Positions 1 to 23,421 of a stretch of DNA of 64,000 nt are shown here, piece by piece. The DNA comes from Glycomyces xiaoerkulensis (lineage in GTDB: Bacteria; Actinomycetota; Actinomycetes; Mycobacteriales; Micromonosporaceae): NCBI RefSeq assembly GCF_002798405.1, contig NZ_PGGV01000003.1, positions 62,001-126,000 on the forward strand, read 5' to 3'. Every line of letters starts with the position of its first letter. Position 1 is the first letter of the stretch. The translations under genes and the position numbers were made by a program. Under the pieces are notes generated by a model. The model had not been told where the DNA came from and did not search any database. It was given only the letters and a program-made list of their open reading frames with translations.

Positions 1-46
1 GCTGCGAGGACCAGGGGTAATTCGGCGCGTTCGTTGAGGAGTGTGT

Positions 47-6561: not shown

Positions 6562-9500
6562 TTGAGCAGGGCTGGGCAAGCAAACGAGGTCGGCAGTGTC
6601 TTCCGCTGTGCCGTCGCCACCCATTTGGCAGTGCATGGACTCCGAGGTCGACCCGTTTCCGGCCTCGATCTTCCGGAGAACATCCACCCTGTCCGGCTCG
6701 ACTTCGAGACGTCCGACCCAACCGACGATATCCGAGTTACGTTCTCAGACGGGCGCCGCGCCTTCATCTCAGCCAAACGTAGAATCAGTATTGGAAGGCC
6801 ACTTGTCGAGACGGTCGCAGGGTGGGTCGCCCAGACTGCGACACTGAGGACCGACGACCTCCTGGTTCTTGCAGGAGAGGACCTCACCGGCCGCGCCAAG
6901 AACTTGGACCGCGTATTGCGACGCCATACAGCAGCGCTAGCGATGGAGACGCGGGCTGAACAGGACGCCTTCAAACTACTCGAAGCGCAGATCCCTGAAG
7001 CGGCCCGTAAGTGTGTGCTGAAGCGAGCGCGAGTGCTGCATCTGCCGCACACATCCGGGAGGGGAATCGCGAGTGACCTCCTGGCAGCGCTCATGGACCA
7101 CGTCGTAGCCAACGATCAGGGCCTGCAGGCAGTACGTGTGCTCGCCGACTTCTTTCACCGCCAGGCCGGAGAGGCCTTGGGCAGCAGTATCGATGATTGG
7201 ATAGACGAGTTGCACCGGACCGGTCTTTCCGTGATCGCGAAGCACGGCGGCCCAGCTGGGATGCACGCTGCAGCGAGAGCGAACGCCGTCGGTGCCTATC
7301 GCGACCATCTGCGAGCCGACGCCGGTCGAATCGACCTGTCCTTGCTCGCAGAAGACTTGCCGCCGATCGTCGACGACAACCTCGTTGACGGCTTGCGGAT
7401 CAGCGGTGAGTACGAACGACTACCTGATCACCTCCTACCATGCCTGCGGCGTTGGCGACGGATGCTTCTCGTCGGCCAACCAGGTTCCGGCAAATCGGTG
7501 GCTCTGCGAGAAATCGCAGCACACTGCGTGGACCATCCCCATGCGCCCATCCCGATCCGGGTTTCACTGCCACGCCTGATGGAACAGGTGCCCGAGATTT
7601 GGTCCATTGCCAAGATCATCGACACTGTCGCCGCCAATGCTGTCACCGCCGACCAGCGCACTGCACTCGCTGCATTTCTGTTGAACGAGGTAGGTCACGG
7701 CCGAGCCCTGTTGCTCTGCGACGGACTCGATGAATGCGGTGCACGGGCCTCATGGGCTGCCCAGCAACTGAGCGATGTCCTCAACGAGATACACCCAAAA
7801 ACCGGATTCGTGCTCGCGACGCGGGCAAGTGCTCAAACCGCCGCCGCGCGACTGGGTCTGCCTACAGTCGAACTGGAACCGCCCGAATTCCTCTACGCAA
7901 CGGTGTGCCGCGTCCTGGGCGCCTGCGCCGAGACACGCATCCCCGAATCCGAACGGAAGCAATGGCTCCAGACCCGCCGCTCCTGGATCAGAGACGCCAG
8001 AGTCGAACACAGTGAGCTGCTCAAGGTGCCCCTCCTTGCCATCCTGCTGGCGCTGGTTTGCGCCAGCGCCGCAGACGATGACCTGCCCAAGGGACGTGCC
8101 GCGCTGCTTCACCGTGCCGTCAGGGAATCCGTCAACCGATGGGAGCTGGATCTGCGGAAGCTAGCCCCGCCGCGTCAGTGGTCGGCGGAGCTCAGCGCCG
8201 ACATGCTATTGGACGGCTATATTGTCCTCGGACGGATTCTCGACAGGGGAGTGAATGCTTCTCAAAGGGACGTTCTTGACGCCCTGATCACGATGCTGCG
8301 CGATCCCGGTCAGTGGGCGATGCCGCCAGCAAGAGCTCGCGAGGCCGCGAGTGGGGTGCTTCGCTTCTGGGACGAACACGTCGCCGTGTTCGTGGCGAAC
8401 GGTGCTGGAGTCCTCACCGCTCGAAGCAAAGTGTTCGCCGAAATCGCTACTGCAATGTGGACGACCACGTGCTCATGGGAGGAGCTGACCGCATGGCTGA
8501 TTGAGGCCCTTGCTTACACCGATTCTGATGGTGCCATCGCGTTGGCCAGCGGCCTCAATCCCAGAATCATGGACGCCCTGCTTGATGCCGGCGCGCGAGG
8601 GAACCGAGACGCCACGCTCATGGTTGCAGAACTCGCCACCCGAGATCTAGGCACGCTCAGCCCGACCGCCGTGGCGCGAATCCTCGAGCAACTCGCCGAC
8701 GGTGTGCACGCCTCGCTGCAAGGAGAACTGCCCCGTGAACGATGGCCGCGAGAGCCCTCGGATGATTTCCCGATGTTCGAGGACCGCACACGTGGCCCTG
8801 GACCGTGGCCGTTCGTCCAAGCCGCCTGCATGCTGCCGGTGTGCATCGACCACCGCGGCAGACGTAACGAAGCGCTGGCAGCCGCCCGGCTTGGCCGTGA
8901 GGAGAGTCAGATCGCAGCAGCACTCTGCGAACTCACCGACGCCAGCGCTGACGCACGCCTCCTGACCGAGCAAGGCACAGCCCTTGTCAGCTCGGTGCTG
9001 GAGCAGCCGGTTCCAGCGGACGTCCCCCACCTATCTGAAGAAGGCCAAATACGAATCCCATTGGCGAACGCGCCGATTCCCGACGGGCTCGCGGAAGTCG
9101 CACTGGCGGCCGCAGCACGCCTCGGCGAACTCGCCGACGGCGTAGGAGAACGAGTGAAGCAGATCGCCGTCGACGCCCCAAGGCATATCGCCAACCGTCT
9201 CAACATCACCCTTGCCCGTGCTGGCATCGAGATCCTCCCGTGGTACGCGAAGCTGGCCTCCATGGAGGGGGAAACGACCACCATCAGACGCGCTGAAGAG
9301 ATGCTCCTGGCCGACCTCGCCTCCCTGGCCGAACCTGACACGAACCAAGATGCCGGGGACCTGTGGTCACTTTCCGAGGTATGCGATCTTGCCCAGGCCA
9401 CCGAACTCGCCGCCACCGGCATTCATGCCGTCGATCGAGCATTCGTCCACGACTCCGCACAGCTCCGTCACGCCTGGCTTGCTGCCATAGCCGACGCCTA

Positions 9501-10179
9501 CGGGATTGACAAGGCAACCGTCGCAGCACAAGCACGGCACCTGCAACGCACGGACTTGGCAGCTGATCAGCAGTGTAGCTCGAGCGACGATTGGTATGTC
9601 GTGTTCGTGGAATCCCAAGAGCCGCCCTCACCGCAGGCCAACATGGACGATGCACTTTCTGCCAGGCAGAAGCAACTACTCCTGGCCTGTCTTGAAGCCG
9701 ACTCCTCGTGGATGGCTTGGGCAGCAGCCAACGTGCTCAGCGACCTTCGGAACGCACCGTGGAATCCGCAACAATTCATGGCCAAGGACATGTCGGACTG
9801 GTCACGGGCACGAGCGGGACTGCTGTATGCCGTCGCGATCCTCTCAGCTGGAGCCGATGCCGAATCAGTACTCAGGCAAGCGGTCGCCTCCGAGATCGCA
9901 GATCACCGCTACGCGGCATGGATCGCGGTTGCCTCGGCGCCGCAACTCGACCCCAGCAGCGAGGTGGCCAATGCCGTACGCCGCGATCCTGATCTTTCGG
10001 CCCGACCGGGAGATGCTTGGGCCGAAGATCCGCAGCCAGCGTATTGGTCGTGCAGGAAATGCAGGTTCCACAACGAAATTCGCGATTTTCGTTGCCGGGC
10101 TTGCGATCACGCCACGCGACAGGGCGAACGGGCGCATGCCAGCAGACGGCGAAGACACCGGGACCGCACCAAAGAATGA
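6562..10179 (+). CDS. NACHT-type NTPase with nuclease-like N-terminus and C-terminal RanBP2-like zinc finger
   Basis: A 1205-residue defence-type ATPase. Residues about 10-80 resemble a PD-(D/E)XK core: DDIRVTF followed by FISAKRR. Walker A GQPGSGKS lies near 306 and Walker B LLLCDGLDE near 385. A NACHT-like helical stretch follows (LLKVPLLAILLALVC, then a conserved RAALLHRAV). The C-terminal half is helical. The last 50 residues contain WSCRKCRFHN then FRCRACDHA, a W-x-C-x2-C-x10-C-x2-C zinc finger of the RanBP2 type, and then a very basic tail. Start: TTG at 6562 behind GGAACTGG; no good ATG or GTG is nearby, so the first residues are uncertain. It is separated from the preceding pair by 120 bp and is probably its own unit. 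Confidence 0.8.
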   Translation: MSRAGQANEVGSVFRCAVATHLAVHGLRGRPVSGLDLPENIHPVRLDFETSDPTDDIRVTFSDGRRAFISAKRRISIGRPLVETVAGWVAQTATLRTDDLLVLAGEDLTGRAKNLDRVLRRHTAALAMETRAEQDAFKLLEAQIPEAARKCVLKRARVLHLPHTSGRGIASDLLAALMDHVVANDQGLQAVRVLADFFHRQAGEALGSSIDDWIDELHRTGLSVIAKHGGPAGMHAAARANAVGAYRDHLRADAGRIDLSLLAEDLPPIVDDNLVDGLRISGEYERLPDHLLPCLRRWRRMLLVGQPGSGKSVALREIAAHCVDHPHAPIPIRVSLPRLMEQVPEIWSIAKIIDTVAANAVTADQRTALAAFLLNEVGHGRALLLCDGLDECGARASWAAQQLSDVLNEIHPKTGFVLATRASAQTAAARLGLPTVELEPPEFLYATVCRVLGACAETRIPESERKQWLQTRRSWIRDARVEHSELLKVPLLAILLALVCASAADDDLPKGRAALLHRAVRESVNRWELDLRKLAPPRQWSAELSADMLLDGYIVLGRILDRGVNASQRDVLDALITMLRDPGQWAMPPARAREAASGVLRFWDEHVAVFVANGAGVLTARSKVFAEIATAMWTTTCSWEELTAWLIEALAYTDSDGAIALASGLNPRIMDALLDAGARGNRDATLMVAELATRDLGTLSPTAVARILEQLADGVHASLQGELPRERWPREPSDDFPMFEDRTRGPGPWPFVQAACMLPVCIDHRGRRNEALAAARLGREESQIAAALCELTDASADARLLTEQGTALVSSVLEQPVPADVPHLSEEGQIRIPLANAPIPDGLAEVALAAAARLGELADGVGERVKQIAVDAPRHIANRLNITLARAGIEILPWYAKLASMEGETTTIRRAEEMLLADLASLAEPDTNQDAGDLWSLSEVCDLAQATELAATGIHAVDRAFVHDSAQLRHAWLAAIADAYGIDKATVAAQARHLQRTDLAADQQCSSSDDWYVVFVESQEPPSPQANMDDALSARQKQLLLACLEADSSWMAWAAANVLSDLRNAPWNPQQFMAKDMSDWSRARAGLLYAVAILSAGADAESVLRQAVASEIADHRYAAWIAVASAPQLDPSSEVANAVRRDPDLSARPGDAWAEDPQPAYWSCRKCRFHNEIRDFRCRACDHATRQGERAHASRRRRHRDRTKE

Positions 10180-10296: not shown

Positions 10297-13200
10297 TTAC
10301 CGTCTCTCGGACTCCCAGTTGCGCTCTGGAGTTGACGTGGAACTGAGTTGGCGTGCGGCCGTAGCAGCGTCGTTGCCCAGTTCAGGATCGTGCGCCATCG
10401 AAGCGAGGAGCCGCATGGTGGCTTGATTGCCAACCTTGGAGAGCAGTTGGATGTACCTGCGGAGGTGGTCGAGTTGTTCCGGCCATCGTGTCAGGTGGAG
10501 ATGCCGGTCTGATTGGGTGATGCCGTGTTCAAGGACGGTGCGGACCTGTTCGGGGAAGTGCATCAGCAGTTTGCGGAGTACGCCTTTAACCGGAGATCGG
10601 AACGTATGGCTGATCCAGAAGAGGGGTTCGGCTGCAACCTCGTGCAGTTCGTGTATCAGTCGCTGCCACAGTGGTCGGCATTGCTCGGTGACTTCTCTAT
10701 TGGTAAGGCTGGGATGGTGGAGATACCAGAGGACCTGGCCATAACAGCTCCATGCTTCGGCCAGCGAACCGCTGAGATGGGTGAGTGGGGGCAGTGGGCT
10801 CATGTGGCTGGCGAGTCCGAGCACGCTGATGACGTACGCTGCGACATCATCCTGGGGCTGCATTGTATCTTTTGCGAGGGATGCCGCCCACAATCTGAAC
10901 GCTGGGATTGCGATGGGGTCGTTGGCGTCAAGGAGCACCTCAAGGATCACGTCCTTCCAGACCAGTGCCTCGGTGCATCGTCCTGCGAGGGCTGCCAGCC
11001 GGTTGATCTGGTCAGGTTCGAGTGCGTCTATAGCCTCGACAAACGGAGGACCGATGACGGGTTCGAACTGAGAGACGAAGATGTGATATGCCTGCGCGAA
11101 GGTGTCGTTGCTGTCGGGTGATGAGAGTAGTTGCCTGATGTCATCGGCAATGTCTTGCGGGCTGTGCGGTGAATCGACGAGGCCATAGGCATGCAAGCAC
11201 TCGATGAGTGCGTCATTCAGGAACAGATGGCCAGGTTGAAGGCATTCAAGGAACTCCTCCAACGCACGCCGTTCGTCCGCCTGGGCAGTGAGTCGTACGA
11301 ACATCAACATGTCGAATATCGCGAGTTGGAGATGGTAGGCGCCACTGTCCCACGCGCAGCGGGCGACGGTGAGCGCTAGCTCGGCGGCTTCGGGAAGGCT
11401 GGTGCGGCTCACGAGCAAGCACGCCAAGGCTATACGGCTGTACCGGTTCGGCTCGAGTCCATGGGTCAGCTGCTCGAATTGCTGTAGTGTCACGGCCGAG
11501 TGAAACCGATTGAATGTGAGGCGGCAGGCCTCCAGGATCAGGCCGGTCGGCAGTCGTTCCGATCCTGAGCGGCTAAGTCCTGCCAGGGCATAGCCGATAT
11601 GGTTCGCCAGGGTGACCCTGGCAGGCGCCGAGTTGGCGACGGTCGCCGAAGCGAACGCGGTGTCGGTTGCGTCAAGAAGCTGAAGACACTCCCTGAACAG
11701 GATGCCGTCGTGCAACCCTTCGCCGATCGCGGCGAAGATTGCATGGTCGTAAGCGCTCCAAGCGAAGCTTGGGCTGATTTCGACTTGATATTCCTGCTGG
11801 AAGTGAAGTGACGCTGCCTCGAAGATGCTGGCCGTTCTTTGGAGCAAGCGTCGAGCTTCTCGGTCCATGACCTGCTCGGCCGGCGTCCCCAGCCTGCCTC
11901 GCAGCGCATCGGAGAACGCGCTCGATTGTGGGATCGCCGTCATGATCGCCTGTATGGTCTTGAAGTCGGAGGCCAATGCAAGTGCGAACTTGACGAGGTC
12001 TGCATGATCGGGAGAGCTCAGGTCACTGACCATTGCGGTGGTATCGGTGCCGTGGTCAAGGAGAAGCGCCTCAGCTGCGAGCAGCCGCTGATACTGCTCG
12101 TGGGTAAAGGCAACATGCTGGCCTTGGACCTGGATGAGCCCAGATGCCAAAACGTCATCGAAGCTGTCGGCTCCTGCGCTTGCGGCGCAGCGTTCGGCCT
12201 CGCCGAGTGTGATCGCGCCGCGCAGTTGCTGGTCCATGGTACGAGCCCAGCTTCGAAGGACGGCTCGAACCGTAGTTGGCCGGTTCGTACCTGACGCCCG
12301 CTCCCGGATGTAGGCATCCAGCAGAGTACCGGTGCCGGCTCGAGGTGGGAGATCGCCAAGGAGCTTGGCGGCGAGGGCGAGCTCGAGCGGCTGTTCGAAC
12401 GGTGCAAATGCAGGATCGGAGGGATCCGCTCCGTTGGCTTCGATGATGCGGTTACGTTGTTCCGGGGAGGGTGACTTCATCAACCAGGTGGTTCCGCCCA
12501 GGGGTTCGGGCGCGTCGGGTTGTGCCTGGCCTGTGGTGATCACGGTGATGGGTTCACGGAGACACATGGCGTTGAGTTCGTGGAGCAGGCGCGTCTGCAG
12601 ATCTGCAGGGCACTCGTTGATGCCGTCGACGAGCAGCGCCACAGATCGCTGCCAGGCCTTTGCCCCCTGAATGAGGGCTTGCGCATCACGTGCGGAATAG
12701 GTGGCGACGGCCTCGTCGAGGAGGGCCCGGAGGCCGCCAGGTCCGTACAGGCGGGCCGAGATCCAGACGGGGAGCCAACCGGTCTGCGCCAGCTGTGAAG
12801 CAATTTGTACCAATGCGATGGTCTTTCCTGACCCAGACGGTCCAACAATATGAATGTGGTGCTGGGCTTTCAGGTGCACGGTGAGAGCATCCGTAGCGAG
12901 CTCCGCACCGGAAGAAGCTTTGATACTCACGGGCACTGCCGCAGACAGGTCCGGGGAGCGGTGGGAGAGGAATCGCTGCACGAACTCGTCCAGACCCGTG
13001 TCGGCAAGGGAGCGGGGGGTCAGCCCGAGACGAGCGGCGAGCGTCGACCGGTCCACTTGGGCTCCGACCGGAGCGTAGCTGCTTGCCAGGTCGAGCATGC
13101 GGTCGAAGTATCGACTTGCTGCGTCCAGGTTGCCGTCGGTGATCTGATTGCTCAGCCACGTGACGGCACCAGCGCGGTCGGCGTCTCGCCCGTCATCGAG

Positions 13201-13740
13201 TCGCAGTTCGACTATGTAGAGGGCTGAGAGCAGACGCCATGTCAGGTCGTCGATCGCACCCTCTTGCTGCGAGGCGGTTGCGACCATTTTGTCGAGCTGC
13301 TGCAGGCGCCTTTGCAGCGACTTAGAGCGTCTGCTGGCGACGTGGTCTCGGAACTCCTGAGCGTTGGGCTGACTTCGCGCACAACCGGTGAGTTCAGCGA
13401 GATCATGTGCAAGCCCGGCGGGCCCCTCCATCGCGAGTGCCAGGCGCCAATGGCCTGTACCCAGGTCCTCACGATGCCGTTCGATCTCGGCAAGGAAGGA
13501 TCGGAAGAGCCTAACCGAGTCCTCGTCGCCCAGCTTGAGCGTTGGCCGTCGCCGCATCGCAATATTGAGTTCCCGTTCGAAGCCGGTCGTGTTTGAACCG
13601 CGAATACGGAAGTCATCGACGTGAGTCGCCGGCGCCTGGAAGGTCACCTCGACCGACGCCACGTCAGCGCCGAGAGCGGGCAAGGGGACACCCGTCAGCA
13701 AGTGGGTGAGCAGGACAGCACCATATCGATGCTCGAGCAC
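10297..13740 (-). CDS. NACHT-type NTPase with degenerate nuclease-like N-terminus
   Basis: A 1147-residue ATPase convergent with the previous gene. The N-terminus reads VLEHRYGAVLL, then THVDDFRI, then IAMRRRP: the same order as a PD-(D/E)XK fold, but with Arg where Q-x-K is expected, so this domain may be a non-cleaving sensor. Walker A GPSGSGKT is near residue 281 and Walker B VALLVDGINE near 355. After that come a NACHT-like helical region and about 600 residues of helical repeats. I chose GTG at 13740 because GGTGGAGG lies just upstream and homologous domains begin close to the RYG motif. GTG 13797 and ATG 14028 are in frame, but the extra residues do not look coding. Confidence 0.75.
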   Translation of the reverse strand: MLEHRYGAVLLTHLLTGVPLPALGADVASVEVTFQAPATHVDDFRIRGSNTTGFERELNIAMRRRPTLKLGDEDSVRLFRSFLAEIERHREDLGTGHWRLALAMEGPAGLAHDLAELTGCARSQPNAQEFRDHVASRRSKSLQRRLQQLDKMVATASQQEGAIDDLTWRLLSALYIVELRLDDGRDADRAGAVTWLSNQITDGNLDAASRYFDRMLDLASSYAPVGAQVDRSTLAARLGLTPRSLADTGLDEFVQRFLSHRSPDLSAAVPVSIKASSGAELATDALTVHLKAQHHIHIVGPSGSGKTIALVQIASQLAQTGWLPVWISARLYGPGGLRALLDEAVATYSARDAQALIQGAKAWQRSVALLVDGINECPADLQTRLLHELNAMCLREPITVITTGQAQPDAPEPLGGTTWLMKSPSPEQRNRIIEANGADPSDPAFAPFEQPLELALAAKLLGDLPPRAGTGTLLDAYIRERASGTNRPTTVRAVLRSWARTMDQQLRGAITLGEAERCAASAGADSFDDVLASGLIQVQGQHVAFTHEQYQRLLAAEALLLDHGTDTTAMVSDLSSPDHADLVKFALALASDFKTIQAIMTAIPQSSAFSDALRGRLGTPAEQVMDREARRLLQRTASIFEAASLHFQQEYQVEISPSFAWSAYDHAIFAAIGEGLHDGILFRECLQLLDATDTAFASATVANSAPARVTLANHIGYALAGLSRSGSERLPTGLILEACRLTFNRFHSAVTLQQFEQLTHGLEPNRYSRIALACLLVSRTSLPEAAELALTVARCAWDSGAYHLQLAIFDMLMFVRLTAQADERRALEEFLECLQPGHLFLNDALIECLHAYGLVDSPHSPQDIADDIRQLLSSPDSNDTFAQAYHIFVSQFEPVIGPPFVEAIDALEPDQINRLAALAGRCTEALVWKDVILEVLLDANDPIAIPAFRLWAASLAKDTMQPQDDVAAYVISVLGLASHMSPLPPLTHLSGSLAEAWSCYGQVLWYLHHPSLTNREVTEQCRPLWQRLIHELHEVAAEPLFWISHTFRSPVKGVLRKLLMHFPEQVRTVLEHGITQSDRHLHLTRWPEQLDHLRRYIQLLSKVGNQATMRLLASMAHDPELGNDAATAARQLSSTSTPERNWESERR

Positions 13741-14385
13741 GGTGCCTCCACCGCCGGAAGCATAGGGGTGTCCTGGGGTGGGCTGTTCCTCCACAGAGAC
13801 AGTCTCGCATCTGGCCTCTGTCGGGCACAGGTGGAGGAGCCTTCCAGATGTTCTGGAGGCGGAGCATTCGCCGTGTCCAGGCACAGGCTCACTTGGACTG
13901 AGGCAGGGCTCCTCGTCGCGGCCGTGATGCCCACGGCCAACTTTGTTCCAAACCGTCTCGGCGGGAAGGAAGTTGAGAAGGTGCGCCCGGTGAGATTCAG
14001 CTTGACTCTCACTCTTCAGTGATGGCATCGTTCAGCGCCATCTCAGTTTCAAATATATATTGACAACAAGGCATTCTAAAGAACCTCGAGCCGCGGATCG
14101 TATCGGCATAGCGTCGAGCCCGGTGCCGATCGCGACGAAGTCCCGAGTTCCTACCTGAACGGTTGGGCGCTCGAAACCTTCGAGCTGACGGAGACCCAGT
14201 GGCCGGAGCTTGCGGGTGCCAACCTTGCCCGGCGCGCTGGCATGCGAACTGCGGTGCTTGTGAATTGTGAATACACTGTCGACTGCGGCCGTTTTGCTGG
14301 ACGGAGAAGACGAGGTGCGCCGACGTGGCCACGCGAGGGAAATGGAATGGTGGGGCGGAGTCTGGTATGAGGGTTGGGAGGCCGG
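13741..14385. other. Divergent intergenic region with AT-rich core
   Basis: The stretch between two divergent defence genes has no convincing gene. Its centre (about 14045-14085) is strikingly AT-rich for this genome (AATATATATT next to TTGACA on the plus strand) and is the likely promoter zone for the minus-strand NTPase. A ten-codon minus-strand frame starts at 14041 and is too short to judge. Confidence 0.5.
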
Positions 14386-16254
14386 GTGTTCCTGCAACGA
14401 GCAGTGATTCGGGGGTTTCGTGCGTCTTCGACGGAGGATCTTGAATGCGAGTTTCCGGGCCGCTTTTCGGTTCTGGTAGGAGCGAATAACGCCGGTAAGA
14501 GCACTGTCACCGATGCCCTGTATCTGGCGCATCGGGACCGGTTCCCGAGGCTTGGGGCGCCCTCGGTGGCGACGTTGGGACCGCACCGGCCGCGCGAGAT
14601 CGCTGTGTCGTTCGCATTCACCGCTGAGCTGAGTGGCGAGGGACCTATTGGAGCCATGCTGCGGGCACAGGCGATGCCTGCGCCAAGCTGGTCTCGCGGA
14701 CTCGAGCGCAACCTCGGTAGCGTACGCGCCGCTGCGCCCGAGATGGTGCCGGATGCCTACGATAAGCTGCGGCTGATCTACCTTCCGGCGTATCGCAATC
14801 CGCTCGATGAGCTTGCGCGTCGAGAGGCGCAGGTGCTCATCGAGATGCTGCGGGCCGAACAGCAGCGGCAACACGGTCATCGCAACCTATCCGATGTGCG
14901 TGCGAGAGCCCAGCGACTCCTTGAGGATCTGACGCGCACCGGGCTGATCGAAGCGGTCGAGCATCGCATCCGCGAGCATTTGACCGCGCTGTCGTCCGGC
15001 GTCAGCGGACATTATGCGTTCGTTGGCGGCCAAGCCGTTGACGACGCTTATCTGGCGCGAGTGCTGGAGCTGCTTTTGGGAGCCGTTGACGAGCGGGCCT
15101 CCGCGCAGCGGCTCGAGGTCTCCGGGTTGGGCTATGTCAACCTGCTGCATATCGCTGTAACGCTTGCCGGGATACCGAACTTGCGGGCTTCGGCAGCCGA
15201 CACAGGCGAGAACGCGCACGCTCGGGAGGGGCGAAGCGACGATGCGAGCAGTACGGCAGAGGAGTCGGCTTCGCAGTCGGACCGTGAACCGACTGAGGAA
15301 GAACTCGACGCGCAGCGCGAGGTTGAAGCCGAATCGAACGAGGATGCGTTCTTTCCCGACCAGTTCCATGTCACCTTGGTCATCGAGGAACCCGAAGCGC
15401 ACCTGCACCCCCAGCTGCAACACGGTCTGACGCGTTACCTGCGCAAGCTGACTGCAGACCGGCCGGAGCTGCAGACGATCATCAGTACCCACTCCGGAGA
15501 CGTCATCGCCGCATGCAGACCGGAGGAGCTTGTAGTGCTCCGGCGGCTCGGCGGCGGTCGGCGGACCTCACGCGTGCTGGCCAATATCCCGATGCATGAC
15601 CGGGATCGGACCCTCCACATGGCTCGCATGCACCTCGACGTGACCAGGTCGGCCGCCCTCTTTGCTGAGCGCATGGTCATCACCGAAGGCGTCACGGACG
15701 CGTTGCTGCTGCGCCAATTCGGGCGTGCTTGGGCGGGCGCCGAATCGCGTCGTCGTCAGTTCATCGAAGCGCTGACTATCGTGGTGATGGGGTGGAAGGT
15801 CGGCCGCTGGCCAGTCGACCTGCTGGCGACCCGCGGGCATGAGATCGCTACCCGAATCGCAGTCTTCAGAGATACCGACAACCGGACGGGAGCGCCGGCT
15901 GCGCCTCCTTCGTGGCTCGCCGACTTCGATGATGCCGTCGTCAGGGGCTTCTACAATGACCCGACACTGGAGCCGGCGATCACGCAAGGCAACGAGGAAG
16001 CCGTCACCATCGCGCTCGAAGAGACCGGGATCGGGCGTCCTGCCCAGTGCACGGCGAAGGCCGTCGACGGCCTCTTTACTGGAGCCTCCAACAGCAAGAA
16101 GGCCATGTTCGCCCACGCCCTGGCCGCTGAATTGGAGCAGCGAATGGCGAACGACAGTCCGGTGATGGTGCCAAATCATATGAGCCAAATGTTCGAATTC
16201 CTATATGCGGGCCACGACGACGATGACCTCGACACGCTCACGCCTGACATGTGA
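14386..16254 (+). CDS. gajA: GajA, OLD-family ATPase-TOPRIM nuclease of a Gabija system
   Basis: A 622-residue OLD-family protein. The ABC-like ATPase has Walker A GANNAGKS at about 32-39 and the signature/Walker [12 protein letters not shown] near 332, followed by ISTHSGD. The C-terminal TOPRIM domain shows [13 protein letters not shown] near 430 and the acidic DTD of FRDTDN near 497. In Gabija systems GajA is a nucleotide-regulated DNA nicking enzyme working with GajB. Start: GTG at 14386, preceded by GGGAGG at 4-5 nt; the in-frame TTG at 14374 has a GAGGG directly abutting it, too close to serve. The 3' end overlaps the gajB start by about 30 nt, the usual two-gene layout. GajA looks intact, but its partner is disrupted. 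Confidence 0.9.
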
Positions 16255-17229
16255 ACAGCGGGCAGCGGCGACGAGCGCCGAAAGGCGTATTTACATCAAC
16301 GCTGCACCAGGCTCAGGTAAAACGACCGTGGCTGCCGAGCGCTTCGGCGTGCTGCGATGGGAACCAGACGATGATCTGCGCCGGATCCTTGCGCTCAGTT
16401 TCACCCGATCTGCCTGCGCAGAGCTGTGCACAAGAATCCGGCAGCGATGGGGCCGGACGGCCCTATCCTGGCCTCATGTGGGGATGACGATCGACGCTCT
16501 CCACTGCGAAATACTGACCTACCTGCTGCGAACCGAGGCGGTCTCCTGGCCGGGCGGCCTGACTGAACTGACGGTGCTGGACAACTGGCGCGGCCAGAAG
16601 GCCGCGCGGTGGATGGCGGAGAGCATGGGCTACCGCAGGGCCATCACCCTCGATGGAACCGCAGTCGGCACCCGTGGGATTCCGGTCAACCGTGCCGGAC
16701 ACTACGTCGGCAAGAAGGAGGACTTCGAATCGCACCTGCGAGCCGGCCGGTGCGCGCACGAGGACGTCCGCCACCTGGTCCTCGCTTCGCTGAAGAACGC
16801 TGAATTGAAGGCGATTATCGCTGAATTCCTCCGTGCAACCACGAAAGCCGTGATTGTCGACGAGGTCTTCGACGCCAACGAGCTCGATCTCGCTCTGGTT
16901 TGGCTGGCGGCCGAGGAGGGACTATCGGTCACCGTGATCGGTGATCCCTGGCAGGCACTCTACGACTTCCGCGGCGCCCGACCAGACTTGGTGCCCGGGA
17001 TGGTCGAGGCCGGAGCCTTCACAACCTACCCGGTCAGCCGCTCATTTCGATTCACGACCGACACGATGCGCACCGTCGCGGAAAAGGCCAGGTCCGGCGC
17101 CCCAGTGTCGTTGGCGACGTCGGCCGACATCGCCGAGTGCGACGTCGTCCTCGCGCGCAAATGGAAAGACCTCTGGGACGTCGCCGACTGTGTGCTGCCG
17201 CTGTCTTTCGGCCGACTGGCCAACCAAAC
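16223..17229 (+). pseudogene. gajB: gajB, 5' part (UvrD-like helicase), interrupted by IS21 element
   Basis: The N-terminal 335 codons of the UvrD/Rep-like Gabija helicase. Seen are motif I INAAPGSGKTT near residue 25, motif Ia LALSFTR, a Walker B-like VDEVFD near 213 and motif III VIGDPWQALYDFRGA. Helicase motifs V and VI are absent from this piece because an IS21-family element is inserted after 17229. Translation would run about 36 codons into the element and stop at 17338. ATG at 16223 overlaps the end of gajA; ATG 16205 is also in frame and neither has a strong ribosome site. Rejoined with 19916-20411 the frame is open for 500 residues, close to the usual GajB length. Confidence 0.92.
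17223..17229. repeat. Target-site duplication, left copy
   Basis: ACCAAAC immediately precedes the left end of the IS21-family element and recurs directly after its right end (19909-19915). Seven base pairs lies within the 4-8 bp usual for the family. Confidence 0.9.
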
Positions 17230-17245
17230 TGATTATTACGGGTTG
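17230..17245. repeat. IS21 left terminal inverted repeat
   Basis: TGATTATTACGGGTTG; matches the complement of the right end at 15 of 16 positions. Confidence 0.9.
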
Positions 17246-17334
17246 CGGTGGCCCCGGGTTCTGGTGAGTTTGGGCCCCAGTTCGGGGGTTGGAACTGGGG
17301 CCGTTTCCAGGTTGATTTGGCCCCGCCTGGTGGG

Positions 17335-18126
17335 CTAGTTGGTGGCGGTTTTCTGGGTCTGGGCGAGTCGGTAGGAGTCGGTGCCGGTCTCGATGATGGT
17401 GCCGTTGAAGGTCAGGCGATCGACGATCGCGGCGCAGAGCCTGGGGTCGGTGAACGTTTTCGTCCAGCCGGAGAACGACTCGTTGGAGGCGATGGCGACG
17501 CTGTTCTTCTCCTCGCGTTCGGTCAAGACCTGGAAGAGCAGTTCGGCGCCGTACCGGTCGAGTTCCATGTAGCCCAGCTCGTCGATGCAGAGCAGGTCGA
17601 CCCTGCCGTAGCGGGCGATGGTGCGTCCCAGCTGTTTGTCGTTGGCGGCTTCGGTGAGTTCGTTGACCAGTTTCGCGGCCAGGACGTACTTGACCTTGTA
17701 TCCGGCCATGACCGCCTCGTGCCCCAGGGAGATCAGCAGGTGCGATTTCCCGGTGCCGGAGTCGCCGATGAGGCAGAGCGGGCTGCCGGTTCGGATCCAG
17801 TCGCATTTGGCGAGGGTGGCGACGGTCGCGGCTTCGATGTTCGGATTGGCTTCGTAGTCGAAGTCCTTCACGCCCAAGAACTTCTGGCGGGGGAAGTCCG
17901 CGGCCCGCAGGCGGCGTTGGCAGCGGCGACGGTCGCGGTCCTCGCACTCGGCCATCATCAGCTCGGCCAGGTAGCCGCGGTAGGTGAGCTGTTCGCGTTT
18001 GGCCGCGTCGGCGGCCGGGGCGAACTGGCTGCGGACGGTCGGCAGTCGCAGCATCTTGGTCGCGACGTCGACCGCGGTCTCGGCGGCGGCTTCAGTCATC
18101 CCTCGCGTCGTGGGTTTGTTGGTCAT
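17335..18126 (-). CDS. istB: IstB, IS21 transposition helper ATPase
   Basis: A 263-residue AAA+ helper of the IstB/DnaC type. Residues about 85-100 give FPRQKFLGVKDFD; Walker A is GDSGTGKS near 122, Walker B LLCIDELGYM near 177, with the sensor region VAIASNESFSGW after it. IstB loads on target DNA and stimulates the IstA transposase. The ATG lies inside the 3' end of istA (35-nt overlap), the normal translational coupling of the pair. Full length for the family. Confidence 0.95.
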   Translation of the reverse strand: MTNKPTTRGMTEAAAETAVDVATKMLRLPTVRSQFAPAADAAKREQLTYRGYLAELMMAECEDRDRRRCQRRLRAADFPRQKFLGVKDFDYEANPNIEAATVATLAKCDWIRTGSPLCLIGDSGTGKSHLLISLGHEAVMAGYKVKYVLAAKLVNELTEAANDKQLGRTIARYGRVDLLCIDELGYMELDRYGAELLFQVLTEREEKNSVAIASNESFSGWTKTFTDPRLCAAIVDRLTFNGTIIETGTDSYRLAQTQKTATN

Positions 18127-19825
18127 GGTCGCTCTCTCCCTCGTGGTGCGGTGACGGTGGTGTCGGCAGGCGTTTCAGCAGCCAGTCGTAGGCAGCGACC
18201 GAGGGTGGGGGCCTGGTGTCGATCGGGAGGCAGGGCCGCTCGCCCCAGGCGGGGCTCGCAGTGTCGGTCTCGCCTGGGCTGTCGTTGTCGGACAGGCCTT
18301 GCGCGGCGCGTCGGGCCAGGACCGCGACCGCATCGGAGGTGAGGGCGCCCGATCCGATCGCAGCGGCCAGACCGGCGACGACGTGTTCGTGGGCGAGACT
18401 GCGGTGGAGCAGCAGGATGCGGATCAGCTCCCGGGTGCCCGCAGCCTGGCCGTGGGCGCGGCCGGCGAGCTGCCACCATCGGTCGTGGACCGGGGTGAAC
18501 TTCCCGGCCGCGCGGGCCTGGTCCAGTGCGGTCGCGCCGGGCAGGGCGCCGGGTTTGATCAGCAGCGCCTCAAGGTAGTGGTCGAGCTTGAGTTGCTCCT
18601 CGCCGCGCCGCAGCAGCCGCCGGTGCCGGGCGATCTCGGTCCGGCCCTCGAAGACCACCAGGTGCGAGGCATACAGCAGCACGCGGACCTTCCTGCCGAT
18701 ATAGCGGACCGGGACGGAGTACTTGACCTGCCGGACCGTGACCTGGCTGAACCGGTCGACCCGAGGGCAGAACAGGCGCCCGACCTCGAAATCCTCTTCC
18801 GGCAGCGGGGCCAGGTGCATCTTCTCGACCTCGAAGTACTGGCCGACCGTCTGCGCTCTGGCACCGATCCGGCGGGTCTCGTCCTCAGCGTCCCACCGCT
18901 CGACGGCCGCGTTGAGCTCGTCGAGGTCGGCGACGACCGGGACGGGAACGAAGTGGTTGCGGCGGAACCAGCCGATATCGCCCTCGACACCGCCTTTCTC
19001 ATGCGCGCCTTCCAAACCGGGACGGCAGTAGAACGCATCGATGCCATAGTGGACGCGAAAGGCCGTCCAGCGGTCGTTCTCGATCCGGGACCGGGACAGG
19101 CCCACGACCTGATGAACTGCGGCCCGCAGATTGTCGTAGCGGACCTGACCGGTCGGGACACCGCCGATGGTCTTCAGCGCGTGGACATGGCCCTCGAAGA
19201 ACGCCTCCTGCCCGCACGAGAGTGAAATCCGGTGGACCGCCTTCCCCGAGAACGACAGCCGGAAGCTGAACAGGAAACACTTCGTGCGCACCCCCGCCAG
19301 ATCCACCCAGATCTCTCCGAAATCGACCTCCGCGCCGACACCGGGCCGATGGGACTGGCGAATGAACGCCTCCGGCGCACGCGCCCGGGCCTCCTGCTCG
19401 AGTTCCTTGCGCCGCTCGGAGACGTACTCGGCCAGCGTCGTATAGGCGACATCCGACATGCCCCACTCGTCCATCAGCCGCTCATGTAGCCGCCGGACCG
19501 TATGCCGCTGCTTGGCCGGGGCTTCCAGGTCGGCTTTCAAGATCTCGTCGATCGCACCGGTGAACGGCTCGAGTTTCCGCTTCCGTTTGGGCGGCTTCTT
19601 GCGCTCCGGAGGCTCTATGGACTCAAGTGCGTCCCGGATCGTTCGACGATGCACGCCGTATTTCTCAGCGAGCGCCCGGATCGACAGGTCCTGGCTGCGG
19701 GCATCACGCCGGATCGCAGCGAACAGTTCCGCCCTCTTCCGCACAGACCGATCGACCACCGACGCCCCCACCCGCCTCGGATACTCAGTCACCGCATGGT
19801 CACACGACCACCAGGGTGGGGCCAC
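18092..19825 (-). CDS. istA: IstA, IS21 transposase
   Basis: DDE transposase of the IS21 family. An N-terminal helix-turn-helix (IRALAEKYGVHRRTIRDAL) is followed by a basic linker (PPKRKRKLEPF) and an rve integrase core. Catalytic acids are visible as EVDFGE, RYDNL and the Glu of HEKGGVEGDIGWF. A beta-barrel-like domain (VPVRYIGRKVRVLLYASHLV) and a variable tail complete it. The full open frame gives 577 residues; the true start may be one of the internal GTG codons around 19759, since family members begin only a few residues before the ELFAAIRRDAR segment. The frame is undamaged. Confidence 0.93.
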   Translation of the reverse strand: MAPPWWSCDHAVTEYPRRVGASVVDRSVRKRAELFAAIRRDARSQDLSIRALAEKYGVHRRTIRDALESIEPPERKKPPKRKRKLEPFTGAIDEILKADLEAPAKQRHTVRRLHERLMDEWGMSDVAYTTLAEYVSERRKELEQEARARAPEAFIRQSHRPGVGAEVDFGEIWVDLAGVRTKCFLFSFRLSFSGKAVHRISLSCGQEAFFEGHVHALKTIGGVPTGQVRYDNLRAAVHQVVGLSRSRIENDRWTAFRVHYGIDAFYCRPGLEGAHEKGGVEGDIGWFRRNHFVPVPVVADLDELNAAVERWDAEDETRRIGARAQTVGQYFEVEKMHLAPLPEEDFEVGRLFCPRVDRFSQVTVRQVKYSVPVRYIGRKVRVLLYASHLVVFEGRTEIARHRRLLRRGEEQLKLDHYLEALLIKPGALPGATALDQARAAGKFTPVHDRWWQLAGRAHGQAAGTRELIRILLLHRSLAHEHVVAGLAAAIGSGALTSDAVAVLARRAAQGLSDNDSPGETDTASPAWGERPCLPIDTRPPPSVAAYDWLLKRLPTPPSPHHEGESDHDQQTHDARDD

Positions 19826-19892
19826 CCCAATCTGGAACTAGTTTTCAGCCCCGTCCAGTGGGGCCACACGAACCCGGAAGACGGGGCCAACT

Positions 19893-19908
19893 CAACCCGT
19901 AATAACCA
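19893..19908. repeat. IS21 right terminal inverted repeat
   Basis: CAACCCGTAATAACCA; the complement of the left end with one mismatch. Confidence 0.9.
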
Positions 19909-19915
19909 ACCAAAC
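19909..19915. repeat. Target-site duplication, right copy
   Basis: ACCAAAC, identical to 17223-17229. Confidence 0.9.
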
Positions 19916-20411
19916 CGACGCGGCTGTAGCGCTGCTGCTCGATCGCTTCGTACGGGGCAGGTTCGGGCATGGGACGGTGCATGGCGTCGAGGCCGGAGCG
20001 GTCCTGGGCCTCGACTTCGAGCGCGTGCAACTCGAAAGCGACCGGTTCGCGGCGATTCTCGAGGTGCTGCACGCCGGGTCTGCTGCGGCAGCCACTGTGG
20101 CACTTGAACAGCTCCGCGACACGATCAAGACGCTCCGGACCGATGGTCGCAGGCCAAGAAGCCTCAAGGCCGAATCAGAAGCCGAGCAAATCGGCCGCCT
20201 CCAGGCGCTGGCGCGTCGCATGCGCCGTGACGACCTGATCCCGGGCCTAACTGTCCATCAGGCCAAGGGCCGGGAATGGCCTGCAGTCGGCCTCAGCCTC
20301 TCCTCGGGCGAAATGGCGCGACTTCGGGAAGGTCTGCACGAAAACAAACCTGACGACCGCGTGCTCTACGTAGCGCTGACGCGGGCGATGAAGACGGTTC
20401 GGCGGTGTTGA
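19916..20411 (+). pseudogene. gajB: gajB, 3' part (UvrD-like helicase C-terminus)
   Basis: The C-terminal 165 codons of the disrupted Gabija helicase. Helicase motif V appears as LTVHQAKGREWPAVG and motif VI as VLYVALTRAM, both diagnostic of the UvrD/Rep superfamily. When one copy of the 7-bp duplication and the IS are removed, the last two bases of the 5' part plus 19916 complete a codon and the frame continues without a stop to 20411. The only in-frame start inside this piece is a GTG at 19977 with no supported ribosome site, so the fragment is probably not expressed. Confidence 0.92.
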
Positions 20412-21114
20412 GAGCGCCAGGCAGTGGACAGATGGAAACACTGCAATTGAGCGGGTTCCGCCTCCTGCCTGGTCTGCTGGGACGTCTTGCGTGACGATAC
20501 AGGTGCGTTCGTGAGTTGGGACATCAGCTTATTCTTGTCGGTCTAGGGCATTCCAATCATCACGAAAATCGCCTCGGCAGCGCTGGCTTTCGCCCGCTGC
20601 TGCCGCGACCTCGGTCCGAGTGCGGCTGCGGGAGCTGAGGCGAGACATCCCGGCTGTTCGATCCCCACCCGAGCGGCCTGCGGGTCGTGCCCAGCTCGGT
20701 TTCCTCCGTGACAACGATGCCTGCTCGCCCCGACGCGGACCTGCTCCGGAGCGTCTACGTGAGCGTTCTGCGCCGCCGGGGCTGCGGTTCGTTGTTCAGG
20801 GATGCAGGGCATGGAGGTCCGGTGCCGAGACCAGGTGCCGAAGCTCCGGTGCGGTGGCTCAACCTTGACTGCAGAGGAGCTTGGCTATGCCCCGACCGAG
20901 AGGTTCCGCAGGATTGTCTAGAGGTGGACCGTCGCCGCTCCATTGCCCGCACCGTGCCACATGCAGCGATGCCCAAGCGGGACGGGAAAGCGAAGCTACT
21001 GTGGACGCATTGCGTCCGTAACCCATGGGACGCAGAAGGCAGGGCTGAGGGCCAGTGAGCGTCGATCCATTTTAGGGGATGACTCTCCAGGAGTTGGTTG
21101 CGTACGATCGACTC
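20412..21114. other. Intergenic stretch, no convincing gene
   Basis: About 700 bp between the gajB remnant and the GIY-YIG gene. Short frames occur on both strands (for example 20687-21058 plus), but none has a recognisable motif, a ribosome site or steady third-position bias. It could be a decayed gene. The promoter of the downstream gene lies at its right end. Confidence 0.5.
21080..21108 (+). promoter_or_regulatory. Leaderless promoter of the GIY-YIG gene
   Basis: TGACTC (21080-21085), 17-bp spacer, TACGAT (21103-21108), then 6 nt to ATG 21115. This spacing puts the transcript start at the start codon, as in leaderless actinobacterial mRNAs. Confidence 0.5.
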
Positions 21115-23421
21115 ATGGCAGGGACGCTTGGTTTCAAACTGGCAGTTCGGCATACGTATCAGCGGCGGTTCACCCGACAGGACCTGGACACGGCCCTGGC
21201 AGGGTGCCATTGGTACCTCATCTCCGCCCGACCGGCCGTTCGCATCATTCCCGACTCTGAGCGACTCGATGATGGCATCCTGACCGTCGGGTTCCAAGAG
21301 GCGGGAGCGGGCGACAGTTCAGGCACGGCCGCGCTGTACGGCGCTGAGTACGCCGACACCGATCATGATGCGACTTTCCATGTCCACGAGGGCGGCTCCT
21401 ACTTCTCGCTCCGGTTCCCGGGTGTCCATCTCCATGGCGATTCGTGGTCGCTGGCCGCATTCCTTTCTGGGGGCGGTCCGGACCTGGCACGGCACGAGAT
21501 CCTCTACATCGGCAAGGCCTACGGTGACGGCCGGCGTACCGCCGCTACTCGCACGGCCCAGCATGAAACACTCCAGACCATCTATGAGGACTATCTCGAC
21601 CAGAGGATGGACATCTTCGTCACCCCATTGATGCTCGCGAAATCCACATGGTCCAGCGACGACCACATCGACGACACCGAACCCGGCCCGGACATCGATG
21701 CGTACGAACGCGTCTTCGCTACCCGGGACGGAGTCGTATCCGGATCTACGGTCGACCTGATCGAGCACAGTCTCATCGCCCATTTCAGCCCGGCTTACAA
21801 CGTGAACCTGAGCAAGTGGCAGGCGCCCCGGCAGACCGAGCCGATGCGGCAGATGCGCTCGGCAGGGTTCCGGCTGCTCAACGTACACCTTGACACAAGT
21901 GACGGGCTCGCCCGATTCTGTTCCGCGACCCAGCCCGAGGCCCGTCGGAGCCACTTCATTTACCACGACGTCCCGCCTGCCCCTCGCAAGGCCGTGCCGC
22001 GTGGCATCAGCGCCATGGAGATCAGCCAGTGGCGCCCGGAGGCCCGTCTCGTTCGCGAAGGCCCCGATATGTTCAGCGATCTCGCCGAACAACGAGACCT
22101 GATGTTCCGAACCTTCGGCGACGAGGCCCCCGCCGAGCGGAAACCGAGCTCCATCTTCCTCGACCATTCGAGCGACACAACGGTCCAGACCACGCCCCTG
22201 GCGCCGGACCTTCTCGAGGCCGAACAGCAGGTTCGCGAATCCATCCTGCAGCGGCGACAGCAAGAGGCCGACGAGGAGGCGGCACTGCAGTACCGGGGCG
22301 TGCCCACCTACGACCCCGAGACCGGCAGTATCGAGTTCGGACGGCTGGACTCCGGAGAACCGGTCCCCTGGATCCTGCACGACCGTGAGGGAAACGCCCA
22401 GAGCGGCTACCTCATCAACGACGACCACCGATCGAACACTTCGACTCTCGTGATCCTCAAGCACCAAGCGGAGCTGTCCGGGCGATTCGTGACCTACCTC
22501 TGCGACCCGAAAGACCGGTTGCGCCTGTCGGCGGGCACGGATGCATCGTCGCCGCAGGCCTGGATTGCCACGAGTCCCGATGCGACCGCTGAGGCGATCC
22601 TCAAAGTCGCCGACGTGGTCGACCTGCGCGCTGGCGATCCGGGTGACTTCAAGATCGGGTCCGGGACCGCTGGTCTCCTGCTCGTGATCAACGATGCGGA
22701 TACGATTCTGGGGTCTCCGGCGATCGACCGCGCCGCATCCAACATCCTCACCAACGGTCCTGTCGTGGGCGTCGGCCTGCTCACGGCGTTCGGTACGGTC
22801 ACTGGTTTCACCTACGCTGCCGAGCACTGGCAGGGGCTCGGCGGGGTCCATAACAAGCTGGCTGGGATTGAAGTGCCGCCCTCGCTGCCCGCGTGGGCGG
22901 CGATGCTCCACCGCGCTCCGCTGCAGGAGGTACCGGTGACTGACGGCGAGCTTGCTTTCGCCGTCTTCCATGACGACCGGAACCTGTACTTCGGCATCGT
23001 CGCGGGCGTCTTGGACGGCTCGCACGATGGTGAAGCCGTCAAGCGCGAGGGCAGAGCGATCATCGTGGATCTCGTCGGCGGGGACCTGCTCTGGATTGAA
23101 GAGGATCACGACTGCGGGTGTTATGAGGGGCTGAATCTCTTGAATGCCACGCGATGGATCGTCAGGCGCTTCCCCGAGCAATGGGTGCTGTTCCATGTCA
23201 TGACGAATTACTTCTTCGACGTCGACGCGCCGCAGCATGAGGCCCTGGGTTGGGCGGACGAAGTGATGCGGTCCCGATTCCGCACCCCCGCCTACACCTG
23301 GCGCTCGGGTCCGACCCCCGACGGCACCGATTTCGCCCTCTACACGACCATCCCTGAACCCATCGAGGTCCTCGACCAGTCCAACAAGATCATGCAGCTG
23401 TACCGACACCTCTACGGATAA
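21115..23421 (+). CDS. GIY-YIG nuclease-like protein with FtsK/HerA-like region lacking Walker A
   Basis: A 768-residue protein with no close family I can name. Residues 120-240 carry a GIY-YIG-like signature: LYIGKA at 130-135, an Arg/His-containing helix after it (TAATRTAQHETLQTIY), a metal-ligand Glu at 217 in IEHSLIAHFSPAYN. Residues ~430-600 run parallel to an FtsK/HerA ATPase: SNTSTLVILKHQAEL where the P-loop helix should be, VTYLCDPKDR like the 'IDPK' strand, LLLVINDADTIL like Walker B, and VGVGLLTAFGTVT like the final strand. The glycine-rich P-loop itself is missing. ATG 21115 is preferred because a -10 lies 6 nt upstream; ATG 21079 has an AGGGG abutting it and overlaps the -35. It is probably co-transcribed with the next gene (31-nt gap). 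Confidence 0.75.
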   Translation: MAGTLGFKLAVRHTYQRRFTRQDLDTALAGCHWYLISARPAVRIIPDSERLDDGILTVGFQEAGAGDSSGTAALYGAEYADTDHDATFHVHEGGSYFSLRFPGVHLHGDSWSLAAFLSGGGPDLARHEILYIGKAYGDGRRTAATRTAQHETLQTIYEDYLDQRMDIFVTPLMLAKSTWSSDDHIDDTEPGPDIDAYERVFATRDGVVSGSTVDLIEHSLIAHFSPAYNVNLSKWQAPRQTEPMRQMRSAGFRLLNVHLDTSDGLARFCSATQPEARRSHFIYHDVPPAPRKAVPRGISAMEISQWRPEARLVREGPDMFSDLAEQRDLMFRTFGDEAPAERKPSSIFLDHSSDTTVQTTPLAPDLLEAEQQVRESILQRRQQEADEEAALQYRGVPTYDPETGSIEFGRLDSGEPVPWILHDREGNAQSGYLINDDHRSNTSTLVILKHQAELSGRFVTYLCDPKDRLRLSAGTDASSPQAWIATSPDATAEAILKVADVVDLRAGDPGDFKIGSGTAGLLLVINDADTILGSPAIDRAASNILTNGPVVGVGLLTAFGTVTGFTYAAEHWQGLGGVHNKLAGIEVPPSLPAWAAMLHRAPLQEVPVTDGELAFAVFHDDRNLYFGIVAGVLDGSHDGEAVKREGRAIIVDLVGGDLLWIEEDHDCGCYEGLNLLNATRWIVRRFPEQWVLFHVMTNYFFDVDAPQHEALGWADEVMRSRFRTPAYTWRSGPTPDGTDFALYTTIPEPIEVLDQSNKIMQLYRHLYG

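Follow-up and report, generated by a model that had tools for sequence, protein, structure and literature searches.

An IS21-family element splits gajB in a Gabija operon of Glycomyces xiaoerkulensis

The DNA analysed here, referred to below as the window, is a 64,000-nucleotide stretch of the draft genome of Glycomyces xiaoerkulensis (contig NZ_PGGV01000003.1, positions 62,001 to 126,000 of the forward strand). Window positions 14386 to 20411 hold an operon for the phage-defence system Gabija, made up of the nuclease gene gajA and the helicase gene gajB, and gajB is split by an insertion sequence (IS) of the IS21 family. The features of the locus, in window coordinates, are as follows.

14386..16254, + strand: gajA, open, 622 amino acids, class 2 OLD-type nuclease with ABC ATPase and TOPRIM domains (PADLOC GajA, 2e-51; invariant TOPRIM residues; fold search)
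16205..17229, + strand: gajB 5′ piece, N-terminal ~341 residues of a UvrD-like helicase, alternative start at 16223 (Pfam UvrD-helicase, 4.4e-23; PADLOC GajB PDLC00112, 6.8e-31)
16205..17338, + strand: open frame as it stands, truncated GajB plus a tail of ~36 residues encoded by the element (reading-frame list)
17223..17229, no strand: 7-bp target duplication ACCAAAC, left copy (sequence comparison of junctions)
17230..19908, no strand: IS21-family element, 2,679 bp, with TG...CA ends and 23-bp-spaced terminal repeats at both ends (end analysis)
17335..18126, − strand: istB, AAA+ helper ATPase (NCBIfam IS21_help_AAA, 1.3e-73, over cut-off)
18092..19825, − strand: istA, DDE transposase, overlapping istB by 35 bp (NCBIfam transpos_IS21, 3.4e-67, over cut-off)
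19909..19915, no strand: 7-bp target duplication ACCAAAC, right copy (sequence comparison of junctions)
19916..20411, + strand: gajB 3′ piece, C-terminal ~165 residues (PADLOC GajB PDLC00112, 1.9e-8, and Pfam UvrD_C, 2.2e-8, both from the inner frame 19977-20411; alignment with 47 distinct relatives)
19977..20411, + strand: possible separate C-terminal fragment, predicted frame of 144 amino acids with a GTG start (reading-frame list)

The 5′ end of gajB (start at 16205 or 16223) overlaps the 3′ end of gajA (end at 16254), and istA and istB are oriented opposite to both. The element is exactly 2,679 bp long, starting TGATTATTACGGGTTG and finishing CAACCCGTAATAACCA. Its outermost 16 bases form inverted repeats that match at 15 of 16 positions and obey the TG...CA rule. 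A GGCCCC-containing repeat recurs every 23 bp in both ends, a spacing described for IS21-family ends in PMC10122671. IstA and IstB both exceeded the curated NCBIfam equivalog cut-offs (IS21 transposase and IS21 helper), and the genes of the element are complete. Overlapping istA and istB, TG...CA ends and 23-bp-spaced terminal direct repeats are common to this element and to IS21 and IS5376, and on these sequence features it is placed as an additional member of a known IS family. The short target duplication looked for in an IS21-family insertion is present, at 7 bp; duplications in this family range from 4 to 8 bp. The initial annotation of this DNA had described an IS21 element of 2679 bp that splits gajB exactly, with a 7-bp duplication, ACCAAAC. 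Comparison of the junctions confirmed this arrangement, with the element at 17230-19908 and the repeats at 17223-17229 and 19909-19915, and the NCBIfam matches bore out the family assignment.

Another genome of the genus carries a related element of 1,346 bp (locus L037), with similar TG...CA ends and a 6-bp repeat, GCGGGG. Because this element has the same kind of ends and a short duplication, it supports the boundaries assigned in gajB. The L037 element (L037:1500-2845) has no complete transposase and carries a 300-amino-acid gene matching APH_6_hur (aminoglycoside/hydroxyurea kinase, 1.2e-15); it looks like a non-autonomous element of the IS21 type, with this gene as its passenger.

The two pieces of gajB match the N- and C-terminal parts of a single GajB profile (PDLC00112), and the N- and C-terminal UvrD domains of Pfam. 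Beside gajA there is no gajB in one frame, the two pieces being held apart by the element. The first piece is open up to the element; the second, in matching phase with it, stays open from there to the stop at 20409-20411, so that removal of the element and one repeat restores a UvrD-like frame of about the length first claimed (~500 codons from the start at 16223, or ~506 from 16205). The nearest intact relatives, L047 (62% for the N-terminal piece, 52% for the C-terminal piece) and the Amycolatopsis locus L060 (59% and 51%), are continuous across the junction. The single residue that lies between the pieces in this alignment is the one whose codon is split by the element. As the intact relatives run through the junction with only this codon between the pieces, no gajB sequence was lost by the insertion.

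Conservation was assessed against related loci, which were taken from the best 80 of 312 loci confirmed in a genome scan. Those with at least 41% identity in the best segment (55 loci, L047-L101) were kept, and the 25 distant ones (at most 35%) were left out. Together with two plasmid loci (L033 and L034), and with identical copies merged, these provided 47 distinct open GajB sequences. A column was called conserved when it was so in at least 95% of them; gaps were counted as deviations, and the window pieces were entered as separate rows. None of the 55 conserved columns in the N-terminal piece was changed, and none of the 20 in the C-terminal piece (the relatives' own medians were 1 and 0). 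Across 505 gajB codons there was no stop, frameshift or conserved-site change, in agreement with the earlier claim that the gene carries no other lesion (0 of 75 conserved columns changed in the two pieces). The claim that all helicase motifs are present stands overall, with the nuance that motif II reads DEVFD instead of the DExQ form. Since the consensus of the 47 distinct relatives also reads DEVFD, the departure belongs to the clade, apparently as a clade-wide variant, and does not count as a lesion. The insertion point lies between helicase motifs IV and V, with the 3′ piece holding motifs V and VI. A second GajB elsewhere in the genome was considered as a replacement and rejected, as only three partial UvrD-like matches were found, with 31-38% identity to the N-terminal piece.

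For the gajA product, PADLOC GajA (2e-51) was the best among the matches listed (25 of 136 families). With both gajB pieces on GajB PDLC00112, this bore out the original identification of the system as Gabija. The gene combines an ABC-type ATPase with a TOPRIM nuclease, and TOPRIM residues E434, D496, D498 and K572 are invariant among 30 aligned family members; Pfam named only the ATPase half. Four of 125 conserved GajA columns deviated (two M for L, one S for T and one T for V); the other 49 rows, which include L090, itself interrupted by an IS near its end, had between 0 and 9 deviations. The profile search ranked the Thermus OLD protein (7e-17) above the solved GajA chains, which matched at only ~8e-4. 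An AlphaFold2 model of GajA had a mean predicted local distance difference test score (pLDDT) of 78, with 121 of 622 residues below 50. A fold search with this model placed TsOLD (Thermus OLD) first and GajA structures next, at 10-17% identity, TM-scores of ~0.4-0.6 and root-mean-square deviations of 7-20. As modelled, the overall arrangement of the GajA/OLD structures is not well reproduced. The fold alignments gave ~10-12% identity between GajA of this clade and the solved GajA structures.

In this locus, as in the Gabija of Bacillus cereus VD045, a gene for an OLD-type ATPase-TOPRIM nuclease precedes one for a UvrD-like helicase, and the PADLOC families are the same. It differs in that the clade here is mostly actinobacterial, GajA is only 10-12% identical to the solved GajA in the fold alignments, motif II of GajB has the clade consensus DEVFD, and gajB is split in this genome. 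The right end of the element, AATAACC, which occurs once on the + strand of the window, was considered for its resemblance to the B. cereus GajA site CCGGGTTATT (given in PMC8136825). This was rejected as a post-hoc match of 7 bases, for a GajA only ~10-12% identical.

As the break falls between motifs IV and V, neither piece of gajB is expected to be a working helicase. A single transposition placed an IS21-family element in gajB, in an operon otherwise intact, and generated the 7-bp target duplication. The nucleotide-binding N-terminal part of the helicase was thereby parted from the part with motifs V and VI. With no active helicase made from either piece, the GajA-GajB complex could not work; GajA would be left idle and harmless, and the Gabija system would be without phage protection. 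Defence in vivo depends on both GajA and GajB, although GajA by itself is able to cut its target in vitro (PMC10781630). In the Gabija of PA14, both proteins were required, and changes in the ATPase and DExx sites of GajB confirmed that these residues are needed (PMC12407980). Over-expression of GajA was not toxic to E. coli (PMC8136825). By analogy with these systems, Gabija is probably off here and gives no phage protection, with GajA idle and doing no harm. In all likelihood, then, this is an ordinary insertional inactivation of gajB by a single clean IS21-family insertion, which taken alone is a routine event. The locus could serve as a natural loss-of-function allele of gajB beside an intact gajA, for asking what role GajA alone has in its own host. 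It also shows that when Gabija is counted automatically from single-gene matches, dead systems may be among those counted.

The draft genome (4,366,437 bp, 40 contigs, 97.65% complete) contains one copy of the element, plus a chance-like match of 32 bp; of its five PF01695 matches, one is a complete IstB. Relatives of the element at E ≤ 1e-60 were found in 41 of 354 family genomes (own genome included, with up to two candidates scored per genome). The best-scoring other relative in the family was 72% identical at the DNA level over positions 126-2305 of 2,679 and lacked the ends; identity over shorter stretches reached 87%. Within the genus, the L037 element came closest at the ends, with 83% identity over 206 bp and 80% over 154 bp. 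Among plasmids, 87 records matched the element (query 17231-19909) and none covered 80% of it; the longest matches listed were 73-76% identical, and in 13 records the best place had at least 90% identity. Movement of IS21 has been proposed to be copy-out/paste-in, a mode in which the donor site is not emptied (PMC11208146), so a source copy would be expected to persist. The lack of a second copy in the draft genome suggests a source on a replicon or mobile element since lost, or in the small fraction absent from the assembly. Probably the element was copied from another replicon or from a mobile element.

The initial annotation had called the insertion recent. Zero changes in 75 conserved codons (~166 non-synonymous sites) place a 95% bound of ~1.8% on neutral divergence since constraint was lost, and the absence of stops alone bounds it only at 6.6%. 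A young insertion is consistent with this sequence-based bound, which is not a date; compatibility with recency stood, and recency itself was not dated. GajA matches at E ≤ 0.001 were found in 6 of 22 genus genomes, own genome included. The five others were distant (at most 39% identity over parts), and 16 of the 21 other genus genomes had no gajA match at this threshold.

Insertions in Gabija operons recur among the related loci. Both genes were open in 47 of the 55, and an IS lay inside the operon in four, its type being inferred in each case from Pfam domains. L090 has an IS3-type insertion in the 3′ end of gajA. In L094, an IS3-type insertion lies in gajB, gajA has a frame break too, and the gajB match ends early. 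An IS4-type insertion lies in gajA of L098 and an IS110-type insertion in gajA of L101, where gajB was not found at the locus. Like the window locus, these four belong to the clade and have an IS within gajA or gajB; their elements are of IS3, IS4 and IS110 types, and that in the window is of the IS21 family. A terminal-repeat scan of these insertions, the ends of which are approximate, gave a clear pair only in L094, weak ones in L098 and none at threshold in L090. Of the remaining related loci, L100 has a truncated gajA and no gajB found at the locus, gajB is broken in frame in both L054 and L078 (possibly sequencing errors), and L051 is cut off by a contig end. A further frame break, again possibly a sequencing error, lies in gajA of L006, a family locus that is not among the 55. 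In the available texts on Gabija with insertion sequences, transposases or transposon disruption, no precedent for an IS-split gajB was found, and a printed one may still exist.

L047-L051 represent one nearly identical locus, leaving 51 distinct loci among the 55. Four named Prauserella/Amycolatopsis species (L047-L050) share the 15.8-kb Gabija neighbourhood at 99.97% identity or more, and a fifth (L051) does so over 10.1 kb. Such near-identity points to a mobile element that spread very recently, or else to cross-contamination.

The four occupied loci show recurrence, and not enrichment over a background rate. It might be proposed that Gabija of this clade has repeatedly been switched off by unrelated IS since its carriage is costly, the window insertion being selected and not merely tolerated. 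Such costs could be, for example, self-targeting when end-repair is impaired, or blocking of useful mobile DNA. The five hits by four kinds of IS (IS21, IS3-type twice, IS4-type, IS110-type) fit this proposal, which we nonetheless regard as rather doubtful; given the recurrence, whether Gabija is costly can be put to the test.

Several points weigh against the simple inactivation of a Gabija gajB by a recent IS21-family insertion. The duplication here is 7 bp, as opposed to 5 bp in IS5376 and numerous other IS21 members (PMC10122671 and PMC11208146). No NCBIfam model passed its cut-off for GajA or for either gajB piece, and solved GajA chains were reached by profile at only ~8e-4. Inactivation is carried over from other Gabija systems, and solved GajA is only ~10-12% identical to that of the clade. 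The age of the insertion is bounded and not dated, in a comparison without a conspecific strain. It is also conceivable that truncated GajB, which by homology keeps the region corresponding to the GajA-contact domain (1B), forms a complex or has residual activity.

One alternative is that the operon functions despite the split, with truncated GajB, or pieces of GajB, retaining a reduced or altered activity together with GajA. The 5′ piece would span domains 1A and 1B by homology, and 1B makes the major GajA contacts in B. cereus GajB (PMC10781630, which also reports the cutting of target DNA by GajA alone in vitro). A 144-amino-acid C-terminal frame with a GTG start is predicted as well. Against this, motifs V and VI are absent from the 5′ piece, neither subunit is dispensable in vivo, and in PA14 point mutations show the ATPase and DExx residues of GajB to be required (PMC12407980), making such activity very improbable. 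An old, decaying pseudogene that looks clean by chance is somewhat less hard to accept, but still unlikely. The data, lacking same-species relatives, would allow ~1.8% (conserved codons) or 6.6% (stops only) neutral divergence, yet 505 codons have passed without a stop, frameshift or conserved-site change, and the element and its genes are complete. We give the least credence to a reversible switch, in which part of the population would be without the element through precise excision and Gabija would be phase-variable. The perfect duplication and the open, in-phase pieces mean that exact loss would restore gajB. The proposed copy-out/paste-in movement of IS21 leaves the donor site filled (PMC11208146), however, and as IS21 would thus copy out without leaving its site, frequent precise excision is unlikely. 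Insertional inactivation by one IS21-family element agrees best with these observations.

In a scan for outward promoters or terminators at the ends of the element, promoter-like (1) and terminator-like (4) sites in 14000-21100 were not in excess of those in shuffled sequence (means 0.9 and 4.1), and an Rfam scan (gathering threshold) and a tRNA scan of the window found nothing. Three large proteins adjoin the Gabija locus, of 1,740, 1,205 and 1,243 amino acids (window 41-5263, 6562-10179, 10297-14028 (−)). They have NACHT or STAND-type nucleoside triphosphatase (NTPase) matches, that of the third being below cut-off. These three predicted NTPase neighbours suggest a defence island. On the 3′ side of gajB, a 780-amino-acid protein (window 21079-23421) was matched neither by Pfam (E up to 1) nor by PADLOC (up to 0.01); it contains LYIGKAYG, which by our own reading is GIY-YIG-like.

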